Source: Thermoleophilia bacterium (lineage in GTDB: Bacteria; Actinomycetota; Thermoleophilia; Miltoncostaeales; Miltoncostaeaceae). Taken from it: a stretch of 64,000 nucleotides of DNA. How positions within the stretch are numbered: position 1 is the stretch's first letter; each line of letters starts with the position of its first letter. Location: positions 1-64,000 of the forward strand of contig JALOLS010000012.1 in assembly GCA_025455865.1 (NCBI GenBank). Direction: 5' to 3'. Below, piece by piece: positions 4,845 to 50,904 of this stretch. The notes below the pieces were generated by a model. The model saw only the letters and a list, made by a program, of their open reading frames with translations. It was not told the DNA's origin and made no database searches. Both the position numbers and the translations under genes were made by a program.

Positions 4845-4861
4845 CCCGGCACCGATCGCCC

Positions 4862-5040
4862 GCCGTGGGAGAGCCCGGCTTCGAGCCGGCGCCGAAGGAG
4901 CAACCGCCCCGGAACCTCTCAGGCACCAGGACCGTGGGGGGCGCGGTGACGCTGGAGAGCGGATGCCCAGACATCCCGCCGACGGGGAAAGCCCGGGCAG
5001 GCCCGGGTGCAGCTCTCAGGCACCAGGACAGCGGGGGCGC
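4862..5040 (+). ncRNA. tandem glycine riboswitch (gcvT motif)
   Basis: Two consecutive aptamers precede gcvP. Aptamer 1 (about 4862-4941) has GGGAGAG, then GCCGAAGGAGCAA, then CTCTCAGGCACCAGGACCG. Aptamer 2 (about 4952-5038) has TGGAGAG, CGCCGACGGGGAAA and CTCTCAGGCACCAGGACAGC. These are the conserved strands of the gcvT-type glycine riboswitch, including the short inter-aptamer linker of the tandem form. In known cases glycine binding turns on the glycine cleavage genes, which agrees with gcvP starting at 5073. The expression platform must lie within the last 30 nt, so translational control is more likely than a terminator. Confidence 0.92.
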
Positions 5041-49791: not shown

Positions 49792-50763
49792 TCAGCCCGC
49801 CGGGGCGGGCTGGACCGGCGGGTCGTCCCGGTCCTGGTCCTTCGTCGCCCGCAGCGAGGCGATGATCGAGACGGCCAGCGTGAGGACGATGATCGAGAGT
49901 GTGAGCCAGACCGGCAGCTTGCCGACCGGGGTCTCGGAGAGGATCAGCTTGGCGCCGGCCACGGCCAGGAGGAACGCCAGGCCGTAGTGCAGGTGCACGA
50001 AGCGCTTGAGCAGCCCGGCCAGGCAGAAGTACAGGGCGCGCAGGCCGAGCACCGCAAGCGCGATGGACGCCCAGACGATGAAGGTGTTGGTGGTGATGGC
50101 GAGCACCGCGGCCACCGAGTCGACGGCGAAGATCAGGTCGCTCGCCTCGATCGCCACCAGGGCGACCAGGAGCAGCGTGCCGGCGCGCCTGCCGTTCTCC
50201 TGCGTGAAGAAGCGCTTGCCCTCATACCGGGGCACGATGGGCCAGATCCTCCGCACCAGCCGCACGAACGGGTTCTTGTCGGGCGGCGGCATCTCGTCGT
50301 GCCGGAAGGCCATCTTGTAGCCGGTGTAGATCAGGAACGCGCCGAAGATGTAGGCGGTCCAGAAGAACGTCTCGAGCAGGCTCGCGCCGACGAAGATGAA
50401 CGCCAGGCGCAGGACCAGGGCGCCGATGACGCCCCAGAAGAGCACCCGGTGCTGGAAGCGGGCGGGGACCGCGAAGTAGGTGAAGATCAGCGCGAAGACG
50501 AAGACGTTGTCCACCGACAGCGCCTTCTCGATGAGGTAGGCGCTGTAGTAGGTGGCGGCCACCTCGCCGCCCTGCCACCACCACATGACCAGGCCGAAGC
50601 CCAGGCCGCAGGCGACCCAGATGAGGCTCCAGATCGAGGCCTCGCGGAACGAGATCTCGTGGTTGTCGCGGTGCAGGAACAGGTCCAGCGCGAGCATCGC
50701 GACGATCGCCCCACCCAGGGCGAACCAGGCCCAGAGGGGGACGGCGAAGTCGAGGGGATCCAA
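49792..50763 (-). CDS. TerC/Alx family manganese-linked membrane protein
   Basis: A 323-residue protein with about eight membrane helices. The TerC signatures are YLIEKALSVDNVFVFALIF and ALVAIEASDLIFAVDSVAAVLAIT, each with the acidic residues that form the presumed metal path. TerC/Alx proteins export Mn(II) or support metal loading of secreted enzymes. The start appears to be TTG at 50763, 11 nt after a GGAGG site. Expression is probably controlled by the manganese riboswitch upstream, with its own promoter at 50899-50904. Confidence 0.9.
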   Translation of the reverse strand: MDPLDFAVPLWAWFALGGAIVAMLALDLFLHRDNHEISFREASIWSLIWVACGLGFGLVMWWWQGGEVAATYYSAYLIEKALSVDNVFVFALIFTYFAVPARFQHRVLFWGVIGALVLRLAFIFVGASLLETFFWTAYIFGAFLIYTGYKMAFRHDEMPPPDKNPFVRLVRRIWPIVPRYEGKRFFTQENGRRAGTLLLVALVAIEASDLIFAVDSVAAVLAITTNTFIVWASIALAVLGLRALYFCLAGLLKRFVHLHYGLAFLLAVAGAKLILSETPVGKLPVWLTLSIIVLTLAVSIIASLRATKDQDRDDPPVQPAPAG

Positions 50764-50771
50764 CGGGGGAC

Positions 50772-50779
50772 AGACCTCC
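50772..50779 (-). promoter_or_regulatory. terC ribosome-binding site, complementary to riboswitch 3' strand
   Basis: On the mRNA GGAGGUCU (50779 to 50772) contains the Shine-Dalgarno sequence. It is complementary over 8 bp, with one G-U pair, to AGACCUUC (50807 to 50800), which is also the 3' strand of the riboswitch P1 helix. The two pairings exclude each other, a layout expected for ligand-released translation. Confidence 0.6.
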
Positions 50780-50798
50780 GGAGCGGGGGATGTGCGTC

Positions 50799-50889
50799 CG
50801 AAGGTCTCTCCCGCCCCGGGTGGGGGCAGCGCCGCCGGGCCATGGGCCGGAATGACGACGGCGCTCTCAGGCGGGGATACTCCCCCTCG
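50799..50889 (-). ncRNA. yybP-ykoY (manganese) riboswitch upstream of terC
   Basis: The minus-strand leader contains the conserved elements of this class in order. P1 5' strand CGAGGG (50889-50884) runs into GGGGAGTA (50885-50878); GTCGTCATTCC and CCGGCGGCG form the second leg (about 50860-50832); and GAGAGACCTTCGG (about 50810-50798) supplies the P1 3' strand CCTTCG, which pairs perfectly with CGAGGG. The known consensus has GGGGAGUAGC and AGACCUU in the same places; here AGTAT replaces AGTAGC. Position before a terC gene supports the call. Confidence 0.75.
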
Positions 50890-50898
50890 TCCGGCGGG

Positions 50899-50904
50899 AG
50901 TATA
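50899..50904 (-). promoter_or_regulatory. -10 element for the terC leader
   Basis: Minus-strand TATACT places the start of transcription near 50892, directly at the 5' edge of the riboswitch. No convincing -35 is seen. Confidence 0.5.

Follow-up and report, generated by a model that had tools for sequence, protein, structure and literature searches.

The minus-strand leader of terC (50892-50764) in the window, the whole 64 kb stretch of DNA analysed, contains a full yybP-ykoY (manganese) aptamer and very probably acts as a translational ON riboswitch of that class, with manganese as the putative ligand and both the ON direction and the translational readout assigned by analogy with characterised members. 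The leader is a divergent member of an established riboswitch class, and the most fitting name for it is an alx-type yybP-ykoY riboswitch with a compact expression platform. The name is used because a covariance model built from relatives of the leader (R1) finds E. coli alx, in which L1, L3 and P1.2 are arranged alike and no P2 is seen. Of more interest than this one leader is the group to which it belongs, described below, which extends across the phylum and is invisible in the database.

The aptamer constitutes the 5' leader of a manganese-homeostasis gene, with terC directly 3' of it and an L,D-transpeptidase-like gene (YkuD) as the upstream neighbour on the same strand (Table 1). Read on the minus strand from 50904, the DNA gives TATACT (50904-50899), then GGACGAGGGGGAGUAUCCCC and the remainder of the leader, and finally the TTG start of terC at 50763. 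The assignment of TATACT as a probable -10 element is consistent with its position in relatives: in 74 of 95 leaders of the bacterial class a TANNNT hexamer has its first base 17-23 nt upstream of GGGGAGTA, and in 12 more at 16 nt, compared with 1-3 of 95 in other windows of equal width. An inverted repeat, ATACTCCC (50903-50896)/GGGAGTAT (50884-50877), overlaps L1 and was considered as an aptamer block or an operator; it is taken as chance because it shares bases with the conserved -10 element, is situated 5' of the expected transcription start and is not evident in the leaders of relatives. The TTG start and the longish Shine-Dalgarno spacing of 11 nt count against the preferred explanation; the spacing to a GTG or TTG start is 10 nt in the close orthologues L004 and L006. 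Elsewhere in the window, a glycine riboswitch aptamer (RF00504) at 4856-4944 on the plus strand scores 60.4 bits, the sole Rfam match in the window above its cut-off.

Table 1. Features of the terC leader and its expression platform (window coordinates; MFE, minimum free energy; SD, Shine-Dalgarno).
Feature	Position	Strand	Basis or remark
Probable -10 element TATACT	50899..50904	(-)	transcription start expected near 50892, foot of P1.1
P1.1 switch helix, 5' strand CGAGGG	50884..50889	(-)	MFE fold; own vs swapped partners, 0/20000 permutations
L1 5' strand GGAGUA	50878..50883	(-)	direct reading
P1.2 5' strand UCCC	50874..50877	(-)	pair changes in relatives
Junction, 8 nt, at P2 position (P2 absent)	50866..50873	(-)	MFE fold
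P3 hairpin with L3 bulge	50828..50865	(-)	MFE fold
P4 hairpin	50813..50827	(-)	MFE fold, pair counts
P1.2 3' strand GGGA	50809..50812	(-)	also pairs with UCCC 50770-50767 in OFF hairpin
L1 3' strand GAGA	50805..50808	(-)	opposite L1 GGAGUA 50883-50878
P1.1 switch helix, 3' strand CCUUCG	50799..50804	(-)	also core of anti-SD strand
OFF hairpin 5' strand GGGAGAGACCUUCGGA	50797..50812	(-)	11-bp core 50807-50797
OFF hairpin 3' strand UCCGGAGGUCUGUCCC	50767..50782	(-)	covers ribosome binding site
SD GGAGG of terC	50775..50779	(-)	11 nt before TTG
terC	49792..50763	(-)	TTG start, 323 aa, TerC family membrane protein; Pfam PF03741, E 7.6e-50

Folded without constraints, the aptamer segment has a minimum-energy structure made up of P1.1, L1, P1.2, an 8-nt junction, P3 with L3, and P4 (names of helices and loops, and of the Mn-contacting adenosine, follow PMC6754395). 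The sequence-only reading had recognised yybP-ykoY landmarks in the leader, and these are borne out on the minus strand: GGAGUA at 50883-50878, GAGACC at 50808-50803, and the CGAGGG/CCUUCG pairing, which forms a P1.1 of 6 bp. GGAGUA lies opposite the [A/G]AGA element in an internal loop that separates P1.1 from P1.2. The suggestion in the same reading that AGTAT replaces the usual AGTAGC loop does not survive comparison with relatives, as AGUA is intact and the last U is the covarying first base of P1.2 (UCCC/GGGA). That first pair is U-A, C-G or G-C among relatives; in 47 leaders from the phylum, both sides have changed at the first pair in 20 and at the second, which is C-G or U-A, in 15. 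The L1 sequence of model matches in the bacterial class is GGAGUA, GCAGUA or GAAGUA in nearly all cases. In families f5, f7, f8 and f9 (e.g. L129, L136, L147), L1 itself covaries, GAAGUA occurring with AAACC and GGAGUA with GAGACC, an exchange that might reflect either changed ion selectivity or a neutral swap.

The P2 helix and four-way junction of crystallised members are absent from the window fold, in which the junction is three-way, and the distance from P1.2 to L3 is 11-16 nt in nearly all leaders of the bacterial class. P2 is not treated as defining, since alx shows no P2 and a passage in PMC9495176 reports a three-way junction for Streptococcus mgtA. The strands of P3 (50865-50856/50837-50828) continue into an upper stem, and the 7-nt L3 bulge holds CGUCA at 50857-50853, a motif present as CG[U/A]CA in every leader of the order. 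U39-C40-A41 presumably fall on 50855-50853, placed there by the conserved CGUCA. By this analogy, the A at 50853 is the counterpart of the Mn-contacting adenosine (A41 of L. lactis). The role of A41/A48 in contacting Mn is described in PMC11087558 and PMC6754395.

A covariance-model match had been proposed as a check on the class assignment, and its outcome depends on the model. Rfam RF00080 (Manganese) aligns over its full length (model positions 1-177) to 50897-50747 with 19.2 bits (E 0.017 in 3 kb), below its curated cut-off of 45 bits, and no other Rfam family matches at the leader. The cut-off is regarded as an annotation threshold, not as a defining feature, because the verified E. coli mntP riboswitch also scores below it (41.6 bits) and the verified alx riboswitch (L207, 4372-4504) goes unlisted by RF00080 of Rfam release 15 at E 0.1 in 26 kb. 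Among the relatives of the window leader, 2 of 20 are listed by Rfam at E<=1. R1 gives a different result. TerC relatives were taken from 42 genomes of the order and their leaders read; the 21 other leaders of the order were picked by the GGGGAGTA motif, so that the L1 motif is present in them by construction, and after it they show, in order, [U/C/G]CC, CG[U/A]CA and either GAGACCU or AAGACCU. R1 was built without protein information from 19 of these relatives' leaders, leaving out the window and L018, which keeps a P2 hairpin and is without an SD-sequestering helix of the window kind. Trained on P2-less leaders and favouring P2-less members, R1 has a single match in the 64 kb of the window, which lies at 50893-50795 and scores 78.1 bits (E 7.9e-18).

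The covariation anticipated among terC leaders of relatives is likewise present. In the leaders of the order, 20 of 28 pairs across five helices have changed on both sides, 84% of alignment cells are paired compared with 70% after shuffling, and the covariation score is 0.391, against 0.172 for shuffled and at most 0.117 for slid alignments; in the 47 phylum leaders the score is 0.619 against 0.198 shuffled, numbers to be read with the provisos that the alignments (A2 and A4) are fitted to the structure of the model and that relatedness inflates shuffle tests. P1.1, P1.2, P3 and P4 are all present with covariation support.

The strand that closes P1.1 has a second partner over the ribosome site of terC. 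AGACCUUCGGA (50807-50797) pairs with UCCGGAGGUCU (50782-50772) in 11 contiguous pairs that include the GGAGG at 50779-50775, and beyond one G.G mismatch four further pairs, between GGGA (50812-50809) and UCCC (50770-50767), bring the total to 15. The proposal that the P1 strand doubles as an anti-Shine-Dalgarno strand was therefore sound in that both pairings are real, and too modest in its length of 8 bp. The OFF hairpin uses the 3' strands of both P1.1 and P1.2 and leaves 3 nt between its end and the start codon, and the P1.1 strand is thus shared between aptamer and expression platform. None of 5000 dinucleotide shuffles matches the duplex energy of this hairpin (-29.0 kcal/mol), and 3 of 9139 33-mers of the window do.

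Both pairings are specific to their own sequences in relatives, as the sequence-only reading had required of them. In the 21 leaders of the order, P1.1 has a mean energy of -9.7 kcal/mol with its own partner and -8.1 kcal/mol with swapped partners, and the anti-SD pairing has -21.0 compared with -15.9 kcal/mol, with 0 of 20000 permutations as good in either case. In 94 distinct leaders from nine families of the bacterial class, the corresponding values are -8.9 and -7.5 for P1.1, and -17.0 and, with partners from other families, -12.75 for the anti-SD pairing (0 of 20000 permutations each), the cross-family comparison for the latter holding in each of the nine families. The anti-SD pairing is likewise specific in the 47 phylum leaders (-19.5 own, -14.7 swapped; 0/20000). 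These permutation counts are optimistic, the leaders being related. In 81 of the 94 class leaders, the P1.1 strand forms a helix of 6 bp or more whose partner strand includes an SD-like tract.

In the proposed mechanism, transcription would begin at the 5' edge of P1.1, and the nascent RNA would fold P1.1, L1, P1.2, P3 with L3, and P4 into a three-way junction lacking P2. In the riboswitch class, P1.1 is the switch helix and is stabilised by Mn (PMC6754395, PMC11087558); by analogy with the structures in those reports, Mn(II) would do this here by bridging L1 and L3. With Mn present, CCUUCG would be kept in the aptamer, leaving GGAGG free and allowing TerC to be made; with Mn absent, AGACCUUCGGA, together with GGGA, would pair with the ribosome site and turn translation off. 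Computed folds that omit tertiary contacts and Mn give -61.4 kcal/mol for the OFF and -50.5 kcal/mol for the ON state, with a minimum free energy of -76.1 kcal/mol. Because the OFF fold is computed to be 11 kcal/mol more stable than the ON fold, the choice between them is probably made during transcription, and an equilibrium switch thrown by one ion was dropped as an explanation for the same reason.

The same aptamer could act on transcription, through Rho-dependent or intrinsic termination, instead of or besides translation initiation. Three related leaders lend this some weight: in family f2 (L154, L155 and L157), the P1.1 strand is built into an intrinsic terminator, GACCUUCGGCAC...GUGCCGG.GGUC with U tracts behind it, and a P2-like hairpin is present as well in L154 and L155. 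High GC content thus does not preclude terminators, and the earlier statement that the genome is too GC-rich for them fails on these leaders of the same class. E. coli mntP, moreover, joins its riboswitch with Rho (PMC11647493), and the window leader is C-rich. Against these points, the window hairpin lacks a U tract behind it, a search of 46-56 kb of the window gave no terminator-like site, the 3' strand of the hairpin holds the Shine-Dalgarno sequence and stops just short of the start codon, and sequestration of that sequence is the arrangement in most leaders of the class. Action on transcription in the window is for these reasons unlikely. Since the partner is a terminator in f2 and the ribosome site elsewhere, the 3' strand of P1.1 is better viewed as a general switching strand whose partner varies.

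The cue might also differ from the one assigned. In E. coli, alx is reported to respond to alkaline pH as well. The abstract of PMC9603457 points to this response, and the altered L1 sequences in parts of the bacterial class (GAAGUA with AAACC, GCAGUA) could shift selectivity, so that an alx-like structure might answer physiologically to pH or to another divalent metal. The window nevertheless retains GGAGUA in L1 and CGUCA in L3, the parts that hold Mn in known structures, and the genes under R1 matches encode TerC, GDT1 and P-type cation ATPases, which makes a cue other than manganese quite improbable. A coincidental likeness to the aptamer, with the SD hairpin serving as a constitutive attenuator or thermosensor, is scarcely credible: the OFF hairpin is indeed very stable, but such a hairpin alone leaves unexplained the aptamer-only model match (E 7.9e-18), the covariation of P1.1, P1.2, P3 and P4, and the specific pairing of P1.1 with its own partner. 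A Mn-responsive translational switch is accordingly retained as the preferred reading of the window leader.

Comparison with known systems places this leader closest to E. coli alx. In E. coli K-12, R1 finds alx at 41.5 bits (E 5.7e-9, 17 kb) and mntP weakly, at 23.8 bits. The alx leader resembles that of the window in L1 (GGGGAGUA), L3 (CGUCAUUACG), GAGACCUU and the plan of P1.2, controls a TerC-family gene, and apparently lacks P2; the 3' strand of its P1.1, GACCUUGCC, can instead pair in an alternative hairpin (GACCUUGCC/GGCGAGGUC), in competition with P1.1. In alx, however, the alternative hairpin excludes the Shine-Dalgarno sequence, which lies ~60 nt further on, whereas the window hairpin covers it directly, and the P4 region of alx is long. 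E. coli mntP shares the L1 and GAGACC landmarks and is a translational ON switch whose ribosome site is inaccessible without Mn (PMC11647493), but differs in its P2 stem and 229-nt leader. The L. lactis yybP and Xanthomonas oryzae riboswitches have the P1.1 switch helix, L1, P1.2 and the L3 adenosine in common with the window (PMC11087558, PMC6754395), and depart from it in a four-way junction with P2 and in regulation by transcriptional antitermination. Streptococcus mgtA, as quoted from Martin 2019 in a passage of PMC9495176, is a yybP-ykoY member with a three-way junction, associated there with another gene and another expression platform. A terC leader of this type is also present in an actinomycete, Corynebacterium glutamicum, where the transcript has been observed (PMC3890552); unlike the window leader, it is found by Rfam (49 bits) and is thus closer to the canonical form.

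Similar leaders are widespread among relatives. R1 matches 93 of 399 genomes of the bacterial class, and RF00080 scores above its cut-off in none of 119; across the phylum, 112 of 397 genomes, from 69 of 245 genera, have an R1 match, compared with 7 of 397 for RF00080, one of them above the cut-off. The phylum search places model matches before other TerC-like genes in other large actinomycete genomes; near the Streptomyces TerC orthologues L037-L046, none of the leader landmarks was found. A literature search of open-access papers found none naming both Thermoleophilia and riboswitch.

Among 82 scanned proteins encoded 3' of R1 matches, 58 are TerC, 11 match Peptidase_M48, and the others include three universal stress proteins, three VTT-domain proteins, one GDT1 and one P-type ATPase. 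In the phylum set, several downstream proteins read by eye are GDT1-like or P-type ATPase-like. Passages in PMC13274385 and PMC10550928 link GDT1/UPF0016, TerC and P-type ATPases to Mn export or handling. The peptidases encoded 3' of the aptamer are HtpX-like M48 enzymes (L087, L089, L092, L098, L101-L103, L107, L115, L116, L137, L144 and L150). Riboswitch copies also precede Asp/Arg-rich ORFs of 58-67 aa in three genomes of the same family (L069 655-749, in the window's own genome at G000:C97, L122 and L139). At L011, a protein encoded immediately 5' of the riboswitch carries a related tail, and the protein that follows the riboswitch at L195 is Zn-ribbon-like, with a pair of CxxC motifs and a tail rich in Asp (MNCPHCNTNLLMTERQGVEIDYCPTCRGVWLDRGELDKL...DDDDDD).

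Taken together, the matches probably represent an alx-type, P2-less Mn riboswitch lineage spread through Actinomycetota, in which the 3' strand of P1.1 is by rule the anti-Shine-Dalgarno strand (a terminator strand in one family), of which Rfam misses nearly all, and whose regulon would extend beyond TerC to GDT1, P-type ATPases, M48 peptidases and small Asp/Arg-rich proteins. Members that lack P2, E. coli alx among them, are under-detected with the Rfam model. If the lineage is as proposed, its targets would be predictable from sequence by the rule that the P1.1 strand is the anti-SD strand, and the M48 peptidases and small Asp/Arg-rich proteins, which have no known Mn link, would become testable candidates for manganese handling. 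RNA-based control of manganese would then be widespread, and largely unannotated, in Actinomycetota.
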